31,191 bases of DNA from a virus: positions 1-31,191 of IMG/VR virus record IMGVR_UViG_3300008266_000414; one strand, given 5' to 3'. Below are positions 15,301 through 29,610 of the stretch, piece after piece. A program made the translations under genes and the position numbers. Below the pieces are notes generated by a model that ran no database searches, had not been told where the DNA came from, and was given only the letters and a program-made list of their open reading frames with translations. Position 1 is the stretch's first letter, and the number at the start of each line of letters is the position of its first letter.

Positions 15301-15354
15301 AGGATTGTCCAGAGCAACATCAGCAATATCAAGGGAGCAGTTAGATCCTATCAT
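12331..15354 (-). CDS. PLxRFG-like large virion protein, 1007 aa
   Basis: A large late protein with ATG 15354 in a TGATG overlap with the upstream giant gene and GAGGG about 7 bases before. The first 250 residues are charged and helical. The second half holds VLLQFSQYALQTMFLL (about 645-660), one strong hydrophobic segment, MFTIMTMWTVAGLLFAIPF (680-698), then an ERIGFTSIIP stretch. This resembles the C-terminal domain of phage polyvalent proteins known as PLxRFG proteins. Such proteins are packed in the virion and thought to be injected with the DNA. The end has a coiled region and an acidic tail. It may be the second half of a giant protein whose first half is the next gene on the right. The stop lies directly against the end of the + strand operon. 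Confidence 0.6.
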   Translation of the reverse strand: MIGSNCSLDIADVALDNPPEAPVFLDPVQNIGAFSSWLRPATAVARKSKFFARMHKATNDKIKMRNLLMADFEGLLHEVNQLPKESKQKLNAVFEYLRLSRTPVRDTGRNFSLKTRELRREGADGIERRVAPELSKPGEILKLDANETRLLHEVRDYLDSRFTLDAKSRLAALGYDGEYSREGIEKGVEDEEFRDELLRLFDAIESQRLISYIPFMRSGDTRIMVYGPDGTIDSGAFFMLDSLQWLKNMVGPKAAKLIPDPGINKKIAEIQKKYPSSEGYKVVVSRRAADVNERLTIDDLSGLDKLLNLMDANAGKIIKNYFDRTMGGMFSQDTVGELSAANAEQVARGVIADLPKSVRSVLMEDLISSYMKQSRDIPGYDTNFTDRLLDYNRIVASTVSHRMYREEYSEAFDDLKRNVSDAEREYAEGWDEYVDSPEHGIFRALRTIGFFNSMWGSIASSSVNAMSVWTVTAPQMTIMKGSAGLDIYKMSAQVIAGFRGQVGYGMHVDPYAIPGLTDEERDALVLANKRGTVRAQMNPELMGVETEIMASRGGGIRQAAQRYFQYGSSVISVTEEMNKAAAFIVAYRYAKDQKALKNWQEAYKDNERAKIIMDEGSDPFDVAEFMVETATFMGGQIEKPPVMRGAGGVLLQFSQYALQTMFLLSENLRKQGPRGKIAAMFTIMTMWTVAGLLFAIPFGDDAINIFQYIYNKLNGKKLDMRTEAQMMLAEMFGGDEDARRDAEAIFRGPSRAFGLNISERIGFTSIIPEFEDGLSIVPAISTSVLKISEYLDRRASGVQPIGAYVAAVSPFIGKGPSDLLKGFVQYPQEGVRTRYGTLVKPAEEMGFFEEQLPRAGGFQTTDIARRQQARQAVKNLNESTRDAERRNTLRLGKLLADAVKADKAGKKAEAEKIRMQFDREIRKISSEYSAEIQAGNMEDAIKPPSDQTLKNAMMSELYPGMKLDRVGKLKRQAVEDIYQTIMVEDQEDESEDGEYEAEGGIEPALPQ
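12341..12362. terminator. GC-rich hairpin at the convergent gene junction
   Basis: AGGGCGGG and CCCGCCCT form a perfect 8-base-pair stem with a 6-base loop (TTCAAT), placed 10 bases after the stop of the ssb-like gene. It lies within the last codons of the oppositely oriented 1007-residue gene. No T-run follows on either strand, so it is not a standard intrinsic terminator. It may slow or end transcription from both sides, or protect the ends of both messages. Confidence 0.45.
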
Positions 15355-18300
15355 CAGTCACACCCTCGGTTTTCTTTCTGCAAGTCAGCGCCTTCTTTGA
15401 TGATCTTATCGTTGGGTTTCTGCGCTTTGGCAACCGCATTCCGCATCTGCTTAGGCGTCCCATTAATCAGAGCCTGAACAGCCTGCTTGTTGTTTGTTAC
15501 CTTCTCAGGTGAAACCGATTCTTCGTTTACTGCAGCTACGCGGAAGTCGGCCTTCGCCTTGTCACCCGCCGCTATTACGCTATTAGCAGCGTCTAGGAAG
15601 TCGTTGAAGAACTGATCTCGCGCCGGGCCCATGCCGAATATCTTGCGGATCATATCCACAAAGTCATCCCACCATGACCGCTTACCAGCTTCCTTCTCAC
15701 TCATGAGACGGTAACCGCTGCCATCCTTCACGACACGCTTAGCGAAATCCTGAATATCCTTATTGGTCAGCAGGTATGCCAGCGCTTCATTCGGAGATTC
15801 CGCTGCGCTTATAACGGTACTGGGGATGCCTGCGCCACCCTCGTATTCTTTCTTAATAACATTACCGAATTTGCGCCACATGTTATTAAATTTCTGGACC
15901 TCTGCCGCGACATCTTCATTGTATAAACCGCGATCTTCCAGAGGCTCACGATTGCGTTCATTGTAAACTCCAACGCTTGACCAACGCGCCTTCACGTAAG
16001 CGTGGATCGCTTCATGCAGGAACGTCTGCTCATTAACACCGTTCGCTGCTTGGTATTTGTTCTTTATAAGGTAGATGTTCTTATCTTTTGGCGTCGAAAG
16101 AACCATGCCGCGAACGTCACCGATAGTCACAAGATAAATGGAATCTTCGTCAGCTCCGTTCTTTGAGAGCGTAGCTATCGCTTTGTCATAGTCGTTGACC
16201 GGATCAAGGATAACCGTCTTCTGATCACCAACGCCGTTCAAGGCTAGAATGGCGGCCATTTTCCGTGCGTCTGGGTTCTTGCTGCTCTTCTGGATTAACT
16301 CAATGGCCTTCTTCGTGTCACCACTTTCAAGCGTTTTGTAGAGAGCGCTGTTCGGCGCAATCGGGGTATCGTTAATAGTCGCACTTGCTGGCGATGAAGC
16401 CAATGCCGCCGCTGCTGCAATGGCAGTTACAGGCTTAGAGTCGCGTATGTTGGCATATTCAAAAGCCTTGTCTTCGAGCATCTGGTTAGAAACAAACTTA
16501 CCATCGCTCTTCGCCAAGCTATCCAGCGCCTTGATGATTGGCGCGTTTGAATCCAGCTTGAAGAGACCCTTGATCTTTATCGAAAGCTCACGCAGCCAAT
16601 TCTTCAGGCGTCCAAGCAGCGAACCCTGCACATCATACCGGCCCTGCAAAATTTCAGTGGCGTTGACGGCCCAGAACTCTGACGGGTTCACATATTGGTA
16701 GAGGCGTCCGTCAACTTTCCCAGACGAAATCAGCCCCGTCGCAAACTTGAATGCCGAGCTAGGGCTATAGTATTTATCCTTTAGCTTAATCTGCTCTTGG
16801 TTATGGAACGCACGGATGGCTTGGAAAAACAGGGTATCGTTTTCATTCTTGCCATCGTAAGAAAGCACCTCAACTTCATTCAGCTCCTTCGCCCAAGCCC
16901 GCTTGATTGCTGCACGAATATCCTGCGGCATCATGCGCTCAAGGTGGTGCATGATTTCATGGACCGTCGTGCCATCGTTAGCCCGGCCTTTAATCAAGCG
17001 CATGACACGGGAAAGCGGATCATATTCTCCTAAGAAACTACTATCCTTAGGCTGCTTTACTACAGAAATGCCAAGATCATTAAGCAGGTTTTCATTGCGC
17101 AGAATGAACCACTCTGCAAAATTAGCTTCCTCTTCAGATATGTTGCCTTTGCGCTTCTGCTCAAGGAGAACCGACCTGATCCTGTCAGGGCCACGAACCT
17201 TCAGCTTACCAAGATCTTCCCAGCGCTTCCAGTTCTTCATGTCTTCAATGAAGTTAGAGTACGACGCTACCTCAAAAGCAAACTCATTGGCATTTATCTT
17301 GCCGTCAGCCCACAGCTTCATGAGCTTGGTAACGCCACGGGACAATGACGGAACCCTGCGGGCCTCATCGAGTATCTCCTCTCGACGCTTTGGCGAGATC
17401 GGCTGGATGCTGGCAAACATATTGGACTGCCCAGCGCCACTGCCGCGTTCGTCCAAGATGCCGTCAAGGATTTCAACGGGCGACATTGAATCGCTCTCAA
17501 ACAAGCCCTCGCTCGTTGTCTGCTCAGAAGCCCGGCGCGCATACTTTTCAAGCACGTCAGCAATGGCTTCGCGGCCAGCTGCGCGACCCAAGGTTTCATT
17601 ATAGAACGAACGAATGAACCGCTCCGTCACAGGATTCAACGGATTGAATGCGTCCTGCTGGCTTAGGAAGTCGCCAATCTTCATGCCCTTGTTGCGGACA
17701 TCGCGAACAATCTTTGCCGCTTCAACAAGCTGCTTGGTCGTGTCCATTTCTGGCTCGACATCACCCTCTTTGATTGCATCGAGCATACGACGCCATGCCG
17801 GGGCAGCATCCTCAAGCGCACCACCAATGCTCTTGATGTTATTGTCCTGAGATTCATCAAGGGTGTTGATCAGGTCAGCATCACCGTATGCCGATGATTT
17901 AACAGCGGTGCGAAGGCGGCGAGTGCCTTCAGCTGACAACCGACCATCTTTATCAAGGAACGCAGCCTGCTCTTGCGTTGGCAGCTTCGACAGGAACGCA
18001 CGCACAAATCCCTGATTGGTTGAAGCATTGACATCAGGAGACGCCATGAGGCTCATGACATCTGGGGTCAAAGACGCTGCGTCAGTCTGAGCTTTCTCGC
18101 TGGTGCTGAGCTGCAGCTTCGTGTCCATGTTGCTTTCGCGCACGAACTTCGAGCGCTCCTCCGGCGTCATCCGGTCAATACGGCGGCGCACCAGAACTGG
18201 ACGATCAAGACCAGATATGTCGAAGCCCTGATCTTCAATGAACTTACGATAGGCATCAGCCTTCTCAGGAGACTCGTCGTACACTTTGTTAATCGCCAAG

Positions 18301-20846
18301 ACGCGACCGTTGCCGCTCTCGACCACATTGTCTGGGCCAACAATCGGAGAACCACGGTCGCTCTCAAGGCTCTCACCAAGGCGCTCAGGGTCAAACTTAG
18401 CGAAGATGTCCTGAACCTGCAGGTCAGTGGAAGATCGGCTGCGGTCGCGGTTCTGCAGGTCGCCTGTAGCCGCTGTCAGATTGGCTGCATCCACGACCTC
18501 GAAGGCAGTTTTTACTTTCGATCCACCGGGAGTGGTTACGGTGCGGACACGCTCTGGTGGTGGCGGCGGGAGCTCAGGCTCTTGTACAGGTTCTTGTACA
18601 GGTGCAGGCGCAGACACAGGCACAGCGGCCTCATCCAGAAACGCTTCTGAGAAATTGTCCGTAGACTGCCTACCGTCTTCACCAGTCATGCTCGAAGCAA
18701 ACGAGTTGATCTTGCCTTCATCGAGCGACCTTGCGCGCTGTTCGCCTTTACCAAAGATGTGAACCGGGACAGGAACGTCCCCATTCTTTTCCTGAATGAC
18801 CATCATCCGGTGACGACCATCATGGCTCTTGACCTTACCCGTTTCAAAATCCAGATTCAGGAATGGCGATCCAACGCCCTTACCTTCTTCTACGGATTGC
18901 CGGATGTAATCGAGACTCGACTGCTTTGGCTTTTCAAGATCAGCAGCCAGCTCAAGGAACTTTGATGGACGCATCATGGCTGTGAAGCCGCGATACTTCA
19001 CGTTCTGGTTCAACGGAACCTGACCGACGCCATTTTCTTGGTCAAAGATTACCTTGCCAACCTGAGACTTGCCCTGCGCATTCATTGGCGAAGGAGGAGG
19101 CATCTCGATGGTGAACTTCGGCTTCCCAGCAGGCGGTGAAAATATCGGTGGGGCCACATCCGGAGAAAATACCGGTGGTGCTACAGCACCAGACTTGATT
19201 GCGGCCTTAGCTTCCCGCGCCGCTTCTTCTTCCGCCGTTTCAATGGTAAACTTCGGTTTCTCAGTAGGTGCAGTAGGCGGTGGTGGTGGAGGAGGCGGTG
19301 GAGCAAACACATCATCCAGACCCTCTGTAATATCCATGCCAAAGGCCATGCCGCCCAAGCCGCTTTCAGGCTCAGCGACGCCAGCTTTGATCGCAGCCTG
19401 AATCTGATCTGGATCTTCAGAGAATACTACGCCGTCAGCATCCGCGAGGACAACGCCGCCGTCTTCATCGAAGCCTTGGAATGTATATTCCTGCGGCCCG
19501 GTTGGTTCCTGAAGAATGACTTTGCCGCCGACAGGGCCAAGAGCTTTAGCAAGGGCCTCCATGTCTGCTGGTGGCGGTGGCGGAGGCGGAGGAGGCGGTG
19601 GAGTGCGAGGAGCTTGTGCAGCACCGGACGTTGGAGCGGTTGGCCCCGTGTCACGCCCAGAGAACACACCCTGAAGACCGCCGATAGGGGCTGCGATTGT
19701 CGCTCCACCGATTGCGCCCAGAGCGCCGGAGGACATAACATCTTCGCCGATAGGCACTTCCGCTGCGGTTCCGAGCTTGGCGATGTTTGTTGCCAGCTTA
19801 GATCCAGCTTCTTCAACAAACTCCTGCGGAGCCTCGCCAATAGCCGCTCGACCCGCAGAACGGAGGATACCTTCCCGCACTGGTTGACCGGCGAATACTC
19901 GCTGCTCAAGGCCCGGTATTTTTGCCGCGACGGCAGACGTAGCTGCTGCGCCAGAAAATGCTATCTGGAATGCACGGTCAGCCTCTTCTTGGGTTCCGCC
20001 TTTGGCAAGCACATCTTCGTAGGCTTGGCTACCAGCACTAGCTGCGTTTATTGTGGCACCAGAACCAACAACGCCGCGCCTAACCACTTTGTTGAGTGCC
20101 GCTTCAGAAACCTCAGCCCCTAAGCGCGGCAGTATTGCGCGAGCACCGGACTGAACGAGTTTACCCGGAATGACCGTAGCAAGCGTGGCAGGCAACATTG
20201 ACGCTGTAGTTTCAGCAAGACTTCGCGGCGTATCAACTGCCGTTTGAACTGTAGCTATTTGAGTAGCAGCCTCTTTCGGCGTTTGAGGCAATAAGTTACG
20301 GGCGAATGCGTTGATGGCGTAATCTATTGGACTAAATATTTTCGTACTAGTACTTGGAGGCGCTGCCAAATATCTGCCAATCCCAGAGTAAATTTTAGAA
20401 CCCATGCCGGGATCGGATTGAGCTATTTCTCTCTGCTGCCTAGCCTGATTTTCAAGGCTCGCCTCAGATAGTTCAGCCTCAGCCCTAGTCTTAATTCCCT
20501 CACCGGATTTCCGAAGGTAATCCCCAAGTAGCGCGTCTACCTGTCTATCTATCTCGCCAATAACAGGAACTGATTTAGTAAGATTTGCTGCCTGCTTGAA
20601 TGTTAAGCCAAGCTCGGACACGAGGCTTCCGATGCCACCCTTAAACCTTGCGCCAACATCGCTAAGAAACGACTCGTCTTCTTTCTTCTTCGGCTTCGGC
20701 TTCGGCTTTGCAGCAGGCGGTGGCAGAGCAGCCGCCCGCCCGGCACCGTCAACGATTGCTTGAAGGTCAGCTGGCGTAGCTCCGTCAGGGGCTTCGATTA
20801 CGTAGCGGTATCCGCCGGATTCATATGTGTACCGATAGTTTGCCAT
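15354..20846 (-). CDS. Giant polyvalent virion protein, 1830 aa: DdrB/ParB-like domain and two zincin motifs
   Basis: The start is ATG 20846 with GGAG 6 bases upstream. Visible modules are: an N-terminal small domain (APDGATPADLQAIV, about 18-31); Pro runs near 415-426 and 516-525; a 'G.GSPFLNL ... HDGRHR' module (HDGRHR at 675-680); a DdrB/ParB-superfamily-like domain about 790-880 (DLQNRDRSR, SPIVGPDNVVESGNGR, RPVLVRRR); and a first zincin motif HEIMH at 1296-1300. A signal-peptide-like hydrophobic segment follows at 1472-1489, ending ASA, then a second zincin motif HEAIH at 1611-1615 with SPNEALAYLL downstream. This domain mix is typical of large polyvalent proteins in phage and mobile elements, delivered with the DNA to act on the new host. 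Exact substrates are unknown. Confidence 0.72.
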   Translation of the reverse strand: MANYRYTYESGGYRYVIEAPDGATPADLQAIVDGAGRAAALPPPAAKPKPKPKKKEDESFLSDVGARFKGGIGSLVSELGLTFKQAANLTKSVPVIGEIDRQVDALLGDYLRKSGEGIKTRAEAELSEASLENQARQQREIAQSDPGMGSKIYSGIGRYLAAPPSTSTKIFSPIDYAINAFARNLLPQTPKEAATQIATVQTAVDTPRSLAETTASMLPATLATVIPGKLVQSGARAILPRLGAEVSEAALNKVVRRGVVGSGATINAASAGSQAYEDVLAKGGTQEEADRAFQIAFSGAAATSAVAAKIPGLEQRVFAGQPVREGILRSAGRAAIGEAPQEFVEEAGSKLATNIAKLGTAAEVPIGEDVMSSGALGAIGGATIAAPIGGLQGVFSGRDTGPTAPTSGAAQAPRTPPPPPPPPPPPADMEALAKALGPVGGKVILQEPTGPQEYTFQGFDEDGGVVLADADGVVFSEDPDQIQAAIKAGVAEPESGLGGMAFGMDITEGLDDVFAPPPPPPPPPTAPTEKPKFTIETAEEEAAREAKAAIKSGAVAPPVFSPDVAPPIFSPPAGKPKFTIEMPPPSPMNAQGKSQVGKVIFDQENGVGQVPLNQNVKYRGFTAMMRPSKFLELAADLEKPKQSSLDYIRQSVEEGKGVGSPFLNLDFETGKVKSHDGRHRMMVIQEKNGDVPVPVHIFGKGEQRARSLDEGKINSFASSMTGEDGRQSTDNFSEAFLDEAAVPVSAPAPVQEPVQEPELPPPPPERVRTVTTPGGSKVKTAFEVVDAANLTAATGDLQNRDRSRSSTDLQVQDIFAKFDPERLGESLESDRGSPIVGPDNVVESGNGRVLAINKVYDESPEKADAYRKFIEDQGFDISGLDRPVLVRRRIDRMTPEERSKFVRESNMDTKLQLSTSEKAQTDAASLTPDVMSLMASPDVNASTNQGFVRAFLSKLPTQEQAAFLDKDGRLSAEGTRRLRTAVKSSAYGDADLINTLDESQDNNIKSIGGALEDAAPAWRRMLDAIKEGDVEPEMDTTKQLVEAAKIVRDVRNKGMKIGDFLSQQDAFNPLNPVTERFIRSFYNETLGRAAGREAIADVLEKYARRASEQTTSEGLFESDSMSPVEILDGILDERGSGAGQSNMFASIQPISPKRREEILDEARRVPSLSRGVTKLMKLWADGKINANEFAFEVASYSNFIEDMKNWKRWEDLGKLKVRGPDRIRSVLLEQKRKGNISEEEANFAEWFILRNENLLNDLGISVVKQPKDSSFLGEYDPLSRVMRLIKGRANDGTTVHEIMHHLERMMPQDIRAAIKRAWAKELNEVEVLSYDGKNENDTLFFQAIRAFHNQEQIKLKDKYYSPSSAFKFATGLISSGKVDGRLYQYVNPSEFWAVNATEILQGRYDVQGSLLGRLKNWLRELSIKIKGLFKLDSNAPIIKALDSLAKSDGKFVSNQMLEDKAFEYANIRDSKPVTAIAAAAALASSPASATINDTPIAPNSALYKTLESGDTKKAIELIQKSSKNPDARKMAAILALNGVGDQKTVILDPVNDYDKAIATLSKNGADEDSIYLVTIGDVRGMVLSTPKDKNIYLIKNKYQAANGVNEQTFLHEAIHAYVKARWSSVGVYNERNREPLEDRGLYNEDVAAEVQKFNNMWRKFGNVIKKEYEGGAGIPSTVISAAESPNEALAYLLTNKDIQDFAKRVVKDGSGYRLMSEKEAGKRSWWDDFVDMIRKIFGMGPARDQFFNDFLDAANSVIAAGDKAKADFRVAAVNEESVSPEKVTNNKQAVQALINGTPKQMRNAVAKAQKPNDKIIKEGADLQKENRGCD

Positions 20847-22289: not shown

Positions 22290-23219
22290 TTATTTGCCTT
22301 TCAGCCATCCAAGCCCGTGCATTGGGTGCTTGATGTTACGCTTGCCGTTGGCGTCGATTGGGCCACCATCCTTCTTACCGAAGATGTTTCCAAGAGCGCC
22401 AATGCCAGTGGCAATCGCACCGATTGTCGATGCCGTCTTATTTACGCCGGGAGCCGTCTCATAACGAGTGCCTGATCCGCTTGCGCTTGGTGTGCCAACA
22501 ATGTTTGAAAAGCGCTGGGCTTGCGTGTAATCATAATCGCGCTGGGCTTCAAAGTCGGATTTCGCTAGGTCAAGCGACTCCTGCTCGAACCCGCGCTGTG
22601 CGCGGCCAGCCGCTTCAAGAGCAGCCGTTTCAGTTCCAGCCAATCTCTGAATGTCGCTACCAAGCCCCGCAGCCTTCTCAGCTGCCGTGAGGTAGCGTCC
22701 AGCTTCAGTATTGAACTGGCCCATGCCGCTCTCATAGCCCTTCTGCAGAGCCTCGTTCTGAGCCGACAGAGCAGCAGCGTTAGCGTCACGCACCGCACGC
22801 GCCGTGAACTCTGCGCTCCGGCTTCCGCCAAACGTACCACCACCGACAAACGTGCGGTTAACCTGAGGCAATAGATTCTCATACAGGTTGCGACCAGCTG
22901 CAGCGCCAATACCAGCAACGACGTTCTGAGTGTACGGATTCATGAACCGCGACGCGACGCCCGGATCAGTGAACGATTGCGTGCCACCTGCAATGTATTG
23001 GCCAGCTGCCTGCGTGTAAGGCCGGAAGTTTCCGACGTTCGCAGATGTCATCTGATAGGCTTGCTGTTCCTGCGGGGAGATAGAAGCAAGGCGCGGGCCG
23101 CCAGTATAGGGCTGATAGTCAGCACTTGTGGCCGTTGCGGCCCGTTCGATGCTCTTGGTATAGGCATCAACAAGCCACTGGGGCAGCTTGGTCTCCGTGA
23201 CAGTTTGTGTGACAGCCAT
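22290..23219 (-). CDS. DNA-ejection-type virion protein, 309 aa
   Basis: ATG 23219 overlaps the previous stop (TAATG) and has GGAGG 9 bases upstream. The protein contains SADYQPYTGGPRLASISPQEQQA, trimmed here to its start SADYQPYTGG, then SRFMNPYTQNVV, FVGGGTFGGSRSAE and a long Ala/Glu/Gln helical part. A Gly-rich hydrophobic piece (TIGAIATGIGALGNIFGKKDG) and a basic tail (GLGWLKGK) end it. The 'MNPYTQ ... GGSR' plan is common in podovirus proteins placed next to ejection proteins. Such proteins form or coat the channel for DNA entry. This is family recollection, not proof. Confidence 0.58.
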   Translation of the reverse strand: MAVTQTVTETKLPQWLVDAYTKSIERAATATSADYQPYTGGPRLASISPQEQQAYQMTSANVGNFRPYTQAAGQYIAGGTQSFTDPGVASRFMNPYTQNVVAGIGAAAGRNLYENLLPQVNRTFVGGGTFGGSRSAEFTARAVRDANAAALSAQNEALQKGYESGMGQFNTEAGRYLTAAEKAAGLGSDIQRLAGTETAALEAAGRAQRGFEQESLDLAKSDFEAQRDYDYTQAQRFSNIVGTPSASGSGTRYETAPGVNKTASTIGAIATGIGALGNIFGKKDGGPIDANGKRNIKHPMHGLGWLKGK

Positions 23220-26200
23220 TACGCCAATCCTCCAACAGCTTTAAGCATTGTATCTATACCCTTCTGGGGTTTTGCAATCTTTTTTACATCCTTACGTCCA
23301 GCCTGACGACGCACCATTTGGCGCATTTTGTCAAGACGGCGCACGCCTTCATCATTTGATCCATCACCAAGATCAGCAACATCCTGCGCGCTCCAGACAT
23401 ATTCGCCATCGGACAGCCACGCCGGGATCTTATCGTCCTGACCGCTGCCGATGCCCTTTACCTGTCCGGGGCCCTGATGACCGCCGTTCTTATGATACTC
23501 GACGAGATGCTTTACCATATCATCATCGACTTCGCCACCTTCAGCAAAAGTGTTTCCGGATGGAAGAATCATCGCTGGGCCAGCAGACTCATTTGCAATA
23601 GGTGTAGTGATAGGTGCAGGGGCAGACTGCAATAATTCTTGTCCCGTCACAGGATCTTTGGTGAAGAACAGATACTCTGTCTCCTGATCGCCGCCACGCC
23701 GGCCATAAGTCTGTGGCGTATAGGGATAGCCACCAACACCACCGATTCCGCCTACAGGAATAGTCGGCCTCAGCGTGGTTTTCGTGAAGTTTATTTTGCT
23801 GGTATCTGGGGCAATCGTGCCGCCACCGTCACCACCGCCTCCGATAACGCCTCCGATTATAGGCGCAGCTACCTGTACTATATCAGCAACGTCGCCTATT
23901 TTTTCCAATAGGGACTTATCTTTGTCTTTGCCCGCCTGCTCATCAGCAAGATCTTCTTGGAACTCAGGCGATTTGATTAAGTCTTCAACGCCGGGAATAC
24001 CACCGCCAATACCAGCGGCAACATCAGGAAGCGGAGTTGTAGTCTCTGGGGCCGTGACCAAGATTTCTTCCTTGGGTTCTTCGACGACAGGCTGCTCTTC
24101 CACTGGTTGCGCCGGAGTGGTTGTGACCGCTGTATTAATAGGCGGAATCCCGCCAATTCCTGCAGCTGTTTCTGGAATAGGAGCGACATCAGACTCCGGA
24201 GCTGTGACGACAATTTCTTCCTTAGGAGGCTCAGTCGAAACCGTCGAAGGCGGAATTTCGACAGGAATAATATTGCCAATACCAGCGGTTTCAGGAACAG
24301 GAATAACTTCGGGTTCCGGCGTGGCCGTGACAACTATATCTTCTTTGACTTCTGGCTGCCGCTCTTCAGCGCGTGCGTCTTGAAGTTCCGGCGAATTAAC
24401 CAAGTCGCCAATACCTGCAAAGCCGCCTGCAACACCAGCTGCCGTCTCCACAATTGGGTTCGCTCCAGATACAGCCGTCGTAACCGGGTTGGCCGAAACA
24501 ACAATTGTTGGATCTGCCGCAACCGCAGCCGAATTTGCTGCCGCCTCATCAAGTTTATTAAGGGCAGCGTTTGTTTCTGGGCTTGGTTGATAGTCAGGCA
24601 CAACCTGCTGGACTGCATCAACAACTGCAGAGCTAACAGCGGCCCCAGTTGCTCCCGCAGATATTGCGGATACCGCCGCGTCAGTGGCCGCGTTGATAAC
24701 AATGTCACCAGTCACTGCATCAACAGTGCCACTTCCTCCGATGCCGCTTATGATGTCTCCAACCTGAGATTCCACCCCAATATCCTTGAGAACGCCACCA
24801 ACAGCTTCTGAAATATCACCACCAATATCAGTGCCCGACATAACGCCCGCTGTCGCACCAGCCGCTGCGGCGCGTATCAATGTCTCCTCAATGGAGCGGC
24901 CCTGAACTGCGCTCGAAACGGCAGACCCAAGAGCAGCAGCGCCAGCCGTCGCCGCAGGCCCAACCGGGCCAAGGACAGCTGTTGCAATAATTGGATAAGC
25001 AATATCAGATACGTTGACGCCAGCCGCACTTGCACCAGCAGCAATCGCCGCACCTACTGGGCCACCAATGATGAAGCCAAGGGCAGCATCACCAATAATA
25101 TCAAGGGCTTGATTAAATATGCTTGTATTTCTCTTCTCATTCGCAACGGTCTTAAAGGTGTCCCCGAATGACAAGTCTCCAGAGCCGGGGTTCTTGAATT
25201 GACCAGTCTGGATCTCCCAGTCAGCCTTGTTACCACCCGCTTTAGTCAATCCTGCAGCAAGCTCTATGGCCTTTTCAGCGGCCTCATATCCAGTGCCTTG
25301 GAAGACAACCTTCTTGGTTCTCATGTCAACAAGACGTACCGGCTGGTTTTCAATTACGTTGAACGTGTTGTCTTTTTTTGCCACCGTGGAAGTGGGGTTG
25401 CCTTTGTTTGACTTTGGTGCCGTGAAGGTTCTGAAATTGTTTGTGTAATCAGGGTTTGTCACCCCGAAGTTACCAAAATTCAGATTGCCAAGATCCAACG
25501 TGGCAAGCGAAGCCATCATTTCGTTCCACTGATCCCTAGACATCTGCATGGTCTGAAGATCGGTATCACTTGGCGAGTAGTCATTGTTGTTAATGACCTG
25601 CGTGCCAGCAGCGGGAGCCGTAGCCGGAGATGCCGGAGCCGCCACAGCAGTCTCAATAACCGAAGGAGCCTCGGCTGGCGCAGCAACGGCAGGAGAACCG
25701 ATACCAGCTACAGGCTCAGCCTCAACGGTCACGGGCTCTACGGCTGGCGTGTAAACAGACTCTGGAACTGGAGCGTATGTTTCCTCAGGCATGCCATAGT
25801 AGGCATCGGGTTCGTAATAATTTACGTCACGACCTATGCCCGCGACAGGCGCTGGCTCGTAATAAGTAGGAGCAGCTGGAGGCGTGTAAACGGGAGCGGG
25901 AACTGGCTCTGGAGCATAGATCTGCTCTGGCACGAAACCATAATCAGGCTCAGCGGAAACCTCTCTACCTCCTATACCGCGAACAACATCGGCCTCTGGA
26001 GTAACCACTGGAGCAGGCGTGTATATCTGCTCAGGAGCCTGAACCTCAGGCACATAATAGTTCTCATCAACACTGCGACCGATTCCGCTCAATGGCTGCG
26101 GCTCTGGCGTAAAGACTGGTTCTGGAGCTGGAGTAACTGCGTCGGCTTGTTCCGCTTGGACACGCGCCTGTTCTTGGGCAGCCACTTCTGCTTGAATAGA

Positions 26201-27208
26201 TGCCTGTTCTGCAGCTTCGCGCTCAGCGGCAGCCTGAGCGGCAGCAACCCGCTGTGCTTCTGCCTGCACTTCAGCAGCGCGCTGTGCGGCTTGTGCATCT
26301 GCAACACGCTGAGCTTCTGCTTGCTGCGCCGCAACACGCTGTGCTTCTGCCTGCTGTGCTGCTTGAACACGCGCCTGCTCTGCTGCTTGTGCTTGTGCCT
26401 GCGCTTCAGCCTGAACCTGAGCGGCAGCAACGCGCTGAGCCTCTGCCCGTGCTGCTGCTTCAGCCTGAGCCTGTGCTGCGGCCTGAGCCTCTGCTGCAGC
26501 CTGAGCTGCGGCCTGCTCTGCCAAAGCTCGCTCCTGAGCTGCGCGTTCGGCGGCTGCCTGTGCTGCTTGGGCGCGCCTTTCATTCAGTTCGGTTTGCTGT
26601 CTTTGAGCGGCGGCTTCAGCTGCTGCTGCTCGTTCCGCTGCAACTCTTTCGGCCTCGGCTCTCTCAGCCAGTTCTTGGGCTGCGGCAACGCGCTGGGCTT
26701 CAGCGGCGGCGGCTGCCTGTTGTGCCGCTGCCTGTTCTGCGGCTGCCTGTGCTGCCGCTACGCGCTGTGCTTCAGCCTGCTGAGCGGCATACTGCGCTGC
26801 GGCGGCCTGTTCTGCAGCGACACGCTGAGCTTCCGCCTGCTGTGCTGCCGCTTGTTCTGCGGCGTAGCGTTCAGCAGCTGCTCTCTGAGCTTCTATCTGT
26901 TGCGCTGCCTGATCTGCAGCATAGCGCTCTGCAGCCAACTGTTCAGCTGATATTTGCGGCGCTGTGAATCGATCTGGCGCTCCACCGATCAGGCCGTAAT
27001 CCTCAACCATATACTGAGGAATGTCGCCAATACCGGCAGTGATCTCTGGAGCAGGCGGCGGTGCATAATACACCGGCTCCGGCGCATAATACACAGGCTC
27101 AACGGGAGCTGGAGAATACTGTTGCACAGCCGCAGCAATGGCCTGCTGAAACGCGGGGCTATTGAAATAGTCCGCATCAAACTGTGGCATGTAAAAATCT
27201 TCAAACAC
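23219..27208 (-). CDS. Giant repeat-rich virion protein, 1329 aa, with TonB-box-like repeats
   Basis: The start is GTG 27208, overlapping the previous TAG (TAGTG), with GGGAG 9 bases upstream. Residues about 92-355 are an Ala/Gln/Glu/Arg coiled-coil of repeated EAQRVAA-type units. About 360-560 is Pro/Tyr-rich with EPVYTP and GIG motifs. About 705-880 is Gly/Ala-rich and hydrophobic, with glycine-zipper character (GFIIGGPVGAAIAAGA). About 900-1060 carries repeated (E/D)I(V/L)VTA-PE units at 956, 997 and 1047, each followed by Pro-rich linker and GIG. The C-terminal part has a 'DDKIPAWLSDGEYV ... LGDGSN' motif (about 1253-1297) that I know from phage ejection-type proteins. It likely helps the virion cross the host envelope. 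The repeats are discussed in findings. Confidence 0.65.
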   Translation of the reverse strand: MFEDFYMPQFDADYFNSPAFQQAIAAAVQQYSPAPVEPVYYAPEPVYYAPPPAPEITAGIGDIPQYMVEDYGLIGGAPDRFTAPQISAEQLAAERYAADQAAQQIEAQRAAAERYAAEQAAAQQAEAQRVAAEQAAAAQYAAQQAEAQRVAAAQAAAEQAAAQQAAAAAEAQRVAAAQELAERAEAERVAAERAAAAEAAAQRQQTELNERRAQAAQAAAERAAQERALAEQAAAQAAAEAQAAAQAQAEAAARAEAQRVAAAQVQAEAQAQAQAAEQARVQAAQQAEAQRVAAQQAEAQRVADAQAAQRAAEVQAEAQRVAAAQAAAEREAAEQASIQAEVAAQEQARVQAEQADAVTPAPEPVFTPEPQPLSGIGRSVDENYYVPEVQAPEQIYTPAPVVTPEADVVRGIGGREVSAEPDYGFVPEQIYAPEPVPAPVYTPPAAPTYYEPAPVAGIGRDVNYYEPDAYYGMPEETYAPVPESVYTPAVEPVTVEAEPVAGIGSPAVAAPAEAPSVIETAVAAPASPATAPAAGTQVINNNDYSPSDTDLQTMQMSRDQWNEMMASLATLDLGNLNFGNFGVTNPDYTNNFRTFTAPKSNKGNPTSTVAKKDNTFNVIENQPVRLVDMRTKKVVFQGTGYEAAEKAIELAAGLTKAGGNKADWEIQTGQFKNPGSGDLSFGDTFKTVANEKRNTSIFNQALDIIGDAALGFIIGGPVGAAIAAGASAAGVNVSDIAYPIIATAVLGPVGPAATAGAAALGSAVSSAVQGRSIEETLIRAAAAGATAGVMSGTDIGGDISEAVGGVLKDIGVESQVGDIISGIGGSGTVDAVTGDIVINAATDAAVSAISAGATGAAVSSAVVDAVQQVVPDYQPSPETNAALNKLDEAAANSAAVAADPTIVVSANPVTTAVSGANPIVETAAGVAGGFAGIGDLVNSPELQDARAEERQPEVKEDIVVTATPEPEVIPVPETAGIGNIIPVEIPPSTVSTEPPKEEIVVTAPESDVAPIPETAAGIGGIPPINTAVTTTPAQPVEEQPVVEEPKEEILVTAPETTTPLPDVAAGIGGGIPGVEDLIKSPEFQEDLADEQAGKDKDKSLLEKIGDVADIVQVAAPIIGGVIGGGGDGGGTIAPDTSKINFTKTTLRPTIPVGGIGGVGGYPYTPQTYGRRGGDQETEYLFFTKDPVTGQELLQSAPAPITTPIANESAGPAMILPSGNTFAEGGEVDDDMVKHLVEYHKNGGHQGPGQVKGIGSGQDDKIPAWLSDGEYVWSAQDVADLGDGSNDEGVRRLDKMRQMVRRQAGRKDVKKIAKPQKGIDTMLKAVGGLA
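24030..24345 (-). repeat. Repeated EEIVVTAPE modules in the 1329-aa protein
   Basis: Three diverged copies of a module lie 41 and 50 residues apart: EDIVVTATPE (956-965), EEIVVTAPES (997-1006) and EEILVTAPET (1047-1056). Each is followed by P(V/I/L)P(E/D) and then (A)AGIG. A fourth related site is TIVVSA (901-906). The unit matches the E-x-I-V-V-T-A pattern of TonB boxes of outer-membrane receptors. Confidence 0.75.
26150..26935 (-). repeat. Low-complexity coiled-coil coding repeat
   Basis: About 260 codons of near-repeats such as AEAQRVAA, AAAQQAAA and EQAAAQ make up the N-terminal coiled coil of the 1329-residue protein. The DNA is imperfectly repeated (CTG/GCC-rich in the + orientation) but keeps frame throughout. 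It would form a long helical rod. Such DNA is prone to slippage and to misassembly, so its length could vary between isolates. Confidence 0.8.
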
Positions 27209-28002: not shown

Positions 28003-29610
28003 TTAACTCTGATACCTCCCATCTGAAGGCTGCAGGTGGACGATGATTTGCCCGGCTTGGTAATCCCCACCAATCGTATTGCTCTGGAATTTAAAGCGCA
28101 ACTCACGCCGCTGCTCCTTAAAGAACACCTGCTGCTGCTCCGGCGTCGTTGCCTGATCCGGGAAGGTCATGATGGGTCCATTAACTTCAGGCGAGCGAGC
28201 GTTGATACGCCCAGTGATCTGCACCGTCATGTCGCCAGTCTGCACAAAGTCAGGTTCAATTATGCTGACGTGAATGGAGCGCGACTTCGGGTCAGGTGTC
28301 GTGAGCAGTGATACGTCGCCCGTCTCGAAATAGCTCTGAACGGCATTGATCGACGAGCCATCGATCTCATCAACGCCGGATTCATGCCGCCATATCTTAT
28401 ACTGCGTAAAGCCTGTGTCCGTGATGCGGAAATCATTGTCAGCTTCCGTGATGCGGCTGTCGCTGGCTTCCGTGATGCGCAGATCGCCAGCTGGCGGCAA
28501 GATAGGCGCAACGCCAGCAAGAATGGGTGACTGAAATACCTGCGCGTAAATGCCCGCTGAGCGCCCGCCGTTTGGCAGCGCGGTGTCGTACCACGTACCT
28601 TCGCGGACGTTATAAATTACAGCGTGATTCGGCTCAGTGCTGTCACCCTTGGGGAAGCACCACCAGATCTCACCAAAGCGAGGAACCTTATAGGCGAACA
28701 CCTTATTGGCATAGGTGTAATTCAGGTTGTCGAAGAAGAAGTTGATGTTCAGCTCATTCGGGACTTCACGGACAACACCATTGTACATCAGGAATCGGTC
28801 GAGCCCGACCCAATAATAGATGCCGTCATACTCAATGATACCATTGGCCGCGAGCACTGATGAGGCCGACGTGATCGTGTCGAACGAGAACACATCCGTG
28901 CCACCCGTGTAAAAAGCCCTGACAAGACTGTCCAGCGTCCAGAATAATCCAGCAGGGTTCTGGCCGCCGCCACGCAGAGGGAGGCCCTTGATGATCTTCG
29001 AGGAGGTAATGAAGGCATCGCCCGCATCACCCGTCGTAAAGTTCGTTGGGTCGTTTGCGTCAGACCACTTAATGAAACCGTTGCTGGAATACATAAATAG
29101 GTACGGGTGCAGGACCACGATGCCGCCAGAAACGCCTGCGGTCGGAATCTCAGTGAGCGCCGAAGACCCATAGATGTTTCCGATGTAAGCCGGGTAAGTT
29201 GCAGAACTGGAAATATCGAGCAGCGTCTCAGCCGGATGCGCGATGATGACGTTGCCGCCACCAGCGCCGTCATACATGGCATCGAACATCCAGTTGAAAT
29301 TATCATCAGCTATGTAGCCGACAGGGCTGCGGTCGATAGGCGCGCTGGTGTTTCCAGACACGTCAATCGTGAATTGCTGAATGCCATTCTGGTTGCCAGC
29401 ATGCGTATAGACGAAGTTATTCAGAGCCTGCGTGTGCAGCTGCCGAACGATCCCCGCCATGTAATTGCTGATCTGCCTATAGCCGCCAATCTTGCGCGGG
29501 AGTCCGCGCTGAAACCGAACCCACTGCCCGTCAACGTAATAATCGCCTTCAAACTTCGTGCCGTCACGCTTGATGCCGGCCTTAGATTTTACGTTGACGG
29601 GTTGGAGCAT
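28003..29610 (-). CDS. Tail hub / DNA-stabilisation protein (P22 gp10- or T7 gp12-like), 535 aa
   Basis: Starts MLQPVNVKSKAGIKRDGTKF. It then reads DGQWVRFQRGLPRKIGGYR, a signature of podovirus tail-hub proteins. The middle has FGEIWWCFPKGDS ... VIYNVREGTWYDTALP, the 'eiWw ... vYny.egtW' strand pattern of beta-propeller nozzle proteins such as P22 gp10 and T7 gp12. These plug or extend the portal and keep DNA in the head. A three-copy RIT(E/D) repeat lies at residues 378-397. It overlaps nothing: the upstream stop is 3 bases away. The ATG has only a weak ribosome site (GGAATAAG). Confidence 0.68.
   Translation of the reverse strand: MLQPVNVKSKAGIKRDGTKFEGDYYVDGQWVRFQRGLPRKIGGYRQISNYMAGIVRQLHTQALNNFVYTHAGNQNGIQQFTIDVSGNTSAPIDRSPVGYIADDNFNWMFDAMYDGAGGGNVIIAHPAETLLDISSSATYPAYIGNIYGSSALTEIPTAGVSGGIVVLHPYLFMYSSNGFIKWSDANDPTNFTTGDAGDAFITSSKIIKGLPLRGGGQNPAGLFWTLDSLVRAFYTGGTDVFSFDTITSASSVLAANGIIEYDGIYYWVGLDRFLMYNGVVREVPNELNINFFFDNLNYTYANKVFAYKVPRFGEIWWCFPKGDSTEPNHAVIYNVREGTWYDTALPNGGRSAGIYAQVFQSPILAGVAPILPPAGDLRITEASDSRITEADNDFRITDTGFTQYKIWRHESGVDEIDGSSINAVQSYFETGDVSLLTTPDPKSRSIHVSIIEPDFVQTGDMTVQITGRINARSPEVNGPIMTFPDQATTPEQQQVFFKEQRRELRFKFQSNTIGGDYQAGQIIVHLQPSDGRYQS
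28418..28479 (-). repeat. Three copies of a CGCATCACGGA repeat in the tail hub gene
   Basis: On the - strand, CGCATCACGGA recurs three times (+ strand 28418-28428, 28445-28455 and 28469-28479), 27 and 24 bases apart. It encodes RITE/D at residues 378, 386 and 395 (LRITEASD, SRITEADN, FRITDTG). It forms a short acidic/polar repeat block in the middle of the beta-propeller region, probably an exposed loop. Confidence 0.85.

Follow-up and report, generated by a model that had tools for sequence, protein, structure and literature searches.

Within the window (the whole 31,191-nucleotide stretch of viral DNA that was analysed), a 1329-residue protein carries several copies of a short peptide whose resemblance to the TonB boxes of outer-membrane receptors is established at the level of sequence; iron-uptake receptors use such boxes to engage TonB, an energy-transducing protein. 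We tentatively read these copies as a multivalent β-strand docking motif that belongs to an ejected protein and whose likeliest partner is TonB, an interpretation that we hold with somewhat less than even confidence. TonB boxes bind the C-terminal domain of TonB by strand addition, the strand structure outweighing single side chains (PMC11658791), and the open-access literature searched contained no description of such boxes in the ejection or tape measure proteins of phages. That the protein is ejected and that its linker is disordered is probable, on grounds of homology and prediction. Coordinates are collected in Table 1.

Table 1. Features of the 1329-residue protein and its neighbours, with positions in the window.
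Feature	Position	Strand	Remarks
1329-residue tape-measure/ejection-like virion protein	23219..27208	-	GTG start; C-terminus matches phage tape measure proteins
Ala/Gln/Glu-rich repetitive segment, about residues 88-356	26141..26947	-	in the window and in relative L006, missing from the remaining aligned relatives
Small α/β domain, residues 585-700	25109..25456	-	kept in many relatives and in Caulobacter phage GB2A
Gly/Ala-rich hydrophobic region, about residues 697-897	24518..25120	-	helices by predicted secondary structure
Pro/Glu/Val/Thr-rich linker, residues 898-1075	23984..24517	-	predicted disordered; holds boxes and GIG motifs
TonB-box-like TIVVSA, residues 901-906	24491..24508	-	PTIVVSAN profile score 14.3, at real-box median
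TonB-box-like EDIVVTA, residues 956-962	24323..24343	-	profile score 19.2
TonB-box-like EEIVVTA, residues 997-1003	24200..24220	-	profile score 18.8; verbatim TonB box of sampled receptors
TonB-box-like EEILVTA, residues 1047-1053	24050..24070	-	profile score 17.1; verbatim TonB box of sampled receptors
Conserved C-terminal domain, residues 1218-1329 (...IPAWLSDGEYVWSAQDV...)	23222..23557	-	common to tape measure proteins
309-residue DNA ejection protein, downstream neighbour	22290..23219	-	phrog_4287, E 1.5e-13
535-residue virion structural protein, upstream neighbour	28003..29610	-	phrog_3287, E 5e-34

The C-terminus and the gene neighbourhood are those of a tape measure or ejection protein. 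The C-terminal ~110 residues matched phrog_6090 (E 1.3e-6) and gp16 of phage Douge (PDB 8zdo; E 3e-6), as well as a Caulobacter phage tape measure protein (47% over 66 residues), and the gene lies among virion ejection genes in the same order as in phage GB2A. The phrog_4287 DNA ejection gene is directly downstream, in agreement with the placement given in the initial annotation. No Pfam match of any kind was obtained for the protein. It was therefore rejected both as a TonB-dependent bacteriocin, having no receptor-binding or cytotoxic domain, and as a TonB-dependent receptor, having no plug or β-barrel and a hydrophobic region predicted to be helical. This Gly/Ala-rich helical region could possibly insert into a membrane, judging from the prediction.

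Modelled alone using AlphaFold2, the small α/β domain reached a pLDDT of 86 and a pTM of 0.80, and it matched the GB2A homologue at 5e-7 (phmmer). Foldseek gave no significant PDB match for this 116-residue domain, the matches being uncharacterised phage proteins only, nor for the long AlphaFold2 model. The linker was modelled at a pLDDT of about 30 with almost no secondary structure, as a disordered region would give.

The IPAWLSDGEYVWSA region at 23222-23557 is common to ejection proteins of the podovirus-like kind, tape measure proteins of siphophages and the tape measure protein resolved in the baseplate of Douge, within which gp16 has been modelled (PMC13033339). Its presence in ejection and tape measure proteins alike suggests a common tail-tip role. 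Siphophage tape measure proteins such as Douge gp16 have the same IPAxLSDGEYV region near the C-terminus, whereas here the genes and neighbours are podovirus-like and the box-bearing linker varies freely in length. Elsewhere in the window, two homing-endonuclease-like HNH genes (PF13392; 27456-28106 and 30114-30746) lie either side of the structural-protein gene, and an 1830-residue protein with a ddrB-like ParB domain (15354-20846), found among the ejection genes, is a possible injected polyvalent protein.

The contig family contains genes for the terminase large subunit, portal, major capsid protein, SU10-type adaptor, phrog_3287 and phrog_4287, with no tail-tube match among the genes searched. 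Capsid, portal, adaptor and ejection genes without such a match point to a podovirus-like phage; as regards a tape measure in the strict sense, it is also the case that the protein ranges from 383 to 1575 residues across relatives. The portal has kin in Pelagibacter phage HTVC023P, phage DSL-LC04, Roseobacter phage CRP-901 and Caulobacter phage RW/GB2A. One relative lies on a MAG contig (L078) labelled Alphaproteobacteria, and the same genome has a protein with a TonB C-terminal domain and a receptor. The host is probably Gram-negative and alphaproteobacterial.

Translation of 23219-27208 bore out the three E[DE]I[VL]VTA copies first proposed, at residues 956, 997 and 1047 (41 and 50 residues apart), together with a weaker fourth, TIVVSA at 901. 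The constant x-P-E extension that had been described after the box proved instead to vary (ATPEP, APESD, APETT). Compositional chance, considered in the initial annotation as a possible source, is contradicted by 5000 composition shuffles, which yielded no strict motif against the 3 observed and a mean of 0.005 for the relaxed form. The flanks of the three boxes are only 13-23% identical and their codons differ mostly at synonymous positions; where the residue is identical, 8 of 17 codons show a synonymous difference. This indicates that the copies are not fresh duplicates. The motif was absent from the other selected ORFs of the 53.6 kb contig of the same sequence.

Scans located the C-terminus in 59 IMG/VR loci and in one locus of an Alphaproteobacteria MAG; for 4 of the IMG/VR loci, and for most of the other genome loci, the match was confined to the short tape-measure region. 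The set of relatives comprised 56 proteins, reduced to 50 non-redundant ones, 42 of them of complete length, and the linkers are mostly unalignable. The expectation that the motif would be kept while linkers vary held for a relaxed form, at least one site of which is present in 36 of the 42 complete relatives, with 6 lacking any box. It did not hold for the strict E-x-I-V-V-T-A-type string, which occurs in only 8 of 50, several relatives being box-free; an intermediate pattern, [IVL][IVL]VTA, was found in 15 of 50 (27 sites, 1.0 expected).

The relaxed consensus, acidic-acidic/P-I-V-V-(T/N/S)-(A/G) with +3 and +4 left free, gave 113 sites, with up to six boxes in one protein, and these site counts are not independent because the relatives share ancestry. 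The core has I at position 0 in 99 sites, V at +1 in 84 and V at +2 in 109, followed by T/N/S at +3 in 89 and A/G at +4 in 95. Acidic residues are enriched about 5-fold at -1 and 3- to 5-fold at -2, and K/R 3- to 4-fold at +6. Mapping box presence on a tree of the C-termini required six changes. The TonB-like form has been lost in L006-L008 (ILVKA, TVIGG), and none of these box repeats is seen in HTVC023P and DSL-LC04, podoviruses that share the portal lineage but are further removed. At the same position, the box-free relatives L048, L051, L057 and L065 have their own lineage-specific tandem repeats (STVNTDTIRGGTGNDTIPG, TTPVVPIQTPSTGTQQGGGD), and the DSL-LC04 homologue (L096:31138-33417) has five copies of a YAGMDLSSAQGTLGGPS-like repeat in place of boxes.

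The context of hydrophobic triplets in the linkers was compared with that in 343 other ORFs of the same contigs. Triplet density was equal (38 per 10,000 residues in both). An acidic residue precedes 68% of linker triplets against 19% of the others, [TS][AG] follows 43% against 2%, and both are present in 28.5% against 0.4%. The mirror-image motif occurred 0 times in the linkers and once in the other ORFs. A generic β-strand reading, tested against the equal triplet density and the mirror-image motif, was rejected, since it leaves this context unexplained.

A second control used a profile built from 66 TonB boxes, aligned by hand, that lie upstream of Plug domains in alphaproteobacterial genomes. 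The motif patterns given above were partly chosen or tuned after inspection of the data, whereas this receptor-trained profile uses no phage sites. At the receptors' 25th percentile, 87 matches were obtained in the family (33 of 50 proteins) against 5.6 in local shuffles, and at the receptors' median 38 against 0.1. The density of profile matches was 21.5 per 10,000 residues in the family, compared with 0.85 in other phage ORFs, 1.1 in cultured podovirus ORFs and 0 in bacterial ORFs. Seven receptor-box 7-mers recur verbatim in the family and none in the controls. With scores of 17-19, the window's three main boxes exceed the median receptor box (14.2).

The phage peptides share with receptor TonB boxes the acidic-x-I/V-V-V-T/S-A/G core, often with K/R two residues later, and a flexible, likely disordered placement; EEIVVTA, EEILVTA and DTIVVTA occur verbatim in the phage family. 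They differ in being multi-copy, in residing in a virion protein without plug or barrel, and in allowing N at +3. TonB boxes normally occur once per protein. Pyocin S2 and colicins B, M and Ia, which cross the outer membrane as the phage protein would do, likewise bear a short strand-forming peptide within a disordered stretch, but theirs is a single N-terminal box, in contrast to the several internal boxes of a DNA-delivery protein. For bacteriocins, pulling by TonB on the TonB box is established (PMC9022066).

Gene order, α/β domain and C-terminus are shared with the 580-residue 'tape measure' protein of Caulobacter phage RW/GB2A (WNV48097.1), the linker of which has the segments DEIVVTP, DPVVVNP, SPVTVSP and DELVIKP. 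That homologue is, however, shorter, has Pro after the strand (+4), and only one of its segments is receptor-box-like (DEIVVTPS, score 15.3). The T7-type internal core (gp13-gp16) and the P22 ejection proteins have an analogous position after the tail genes, with an ejection protein adjoining; a sequence relation between these and the 1329-residue protein was not found. Phage T1 is TonB-dependent, and a pattern search of five of its tail proteins gave no box motif, so that a phage can depend on TonB without having a box of its own.

The 1329-residue protein has 12 copies of a second motif, GIG (often AGIGG), where 0.5 would be expected. Each of the 50 relatives has it too (279 copies, 39 expected), and it is more general than the box. 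A fixed spacing from box to GIG was rejected, the 43 cases seen against 35.5 expected (sd 4.1) being weakly above random.

N occupies +3 in 24 of the 113 phage sites and in none of the 66 receptor boxes. This, together with the box-free relatives, Pro at +4, the kinship of the proteins, the tuned definitions and GIG, keeps our confidence in TonB docking somewhat below even. For the same reasons we regard as a serious, if rather doubtful, alternative that the boxes are genuine β-strand docking peptides for another partner, the likeness to TonB boxes reflecting convergence on a generic strand-addition peptide. Such a partner could be another ejection protein, the tail nozzle or tip, the protein itself in the virion, or a different periplasmic host protein. 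It would accommodate a multi-copy motif that is directional and persistent, yet is more permissive than receptor boxes of N, E and K at +3, and that is followed within 30 residues by GIG at about 40% of sites (weakly above random), GIG being a second family-wide motif not needed by TonB boxes. The acidic residues before the strand, T-A/G after it and K/R at +6 are nevertheless specific points of agreement with TonB boxes, and the agreement extends to verbatim 7-mers.

It appears improbable that the units are low-complexity repeats that expanded in a linker free of constraint and have no specific role. The broad length range, the lineage-specific tandem repeats, the relatives without boxes and 12 box pairs with similar flanks, which are near-identical recent copies, would all be expected of it. 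Most within-protein copies, however, have unrelated flanks, and in these pairs (14% flank identity) synonymous divergence is near-saturated (72 of 141, with 90 expected if independent), indicating that they are not recent. Simple expansion, tested by synonymous divergence and flank identity, was rejected because it leaves most copies unexplained. Moreover, the motif recurs across relatives whose linkers are unalignable, and its mirror image is absent from the linkers.

Sequestration of TonB by the boxes, as in superinfection exclusion or inhibition of iron uptake, would draw on the same receptor-profile matches and acidic/[TS][AG] context but is very unlikely, as the setting among virion ejection genes and the tape-measure-type C-terminus indicate a protein that probably acts at entry and in low copy number.

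In the favoured reading, docking onto TonB, the variable-length, predicted-disordered linker would display several directional acidic-I-V-V-(T/N/S)-(A/G) peptides. Once ejected, the protein would reach the outer membrane or periplasm, and its boxes would be exposed either in the periplasm or by way of an opened receptor. The boxes would then add as β-strands to the C-terminal domain of the host's TonB, as the boxes of receptors and bacteriocins do, and pulling or tethering by the Ton system, driven by the proton-motive force, would help the ejection protein, with the DNA behind it, across the envelope. Multiple boxes would permit repeated grabs along a long disordered chain.

The energy source and route by which the DNA of short-tailed phages crosses the Gram-negative envelope are only partly understood. 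The persistence of the box motif amid changing sequence suggests that the virus may plug into the TonB machine of its host. The wider proposal, that widespread freshwater podovirus-like phages inject an array of TonB boxes by which the Ton motor draws the DNA and its ejection protein across the outer membrane, is somewhat unlikely. The idea is testable in culturable relatives, namely the Caulobacter phages RW, GB2A, KcrB and RLK, which grow on C. vibrioides CB15. If true, the entry of phage DNA would be coupled directly to the Ton motor, which the proton-motive force drives, much as bacteriocin uptake is, and a dependence on TonB downstream of the receptor would become possible.
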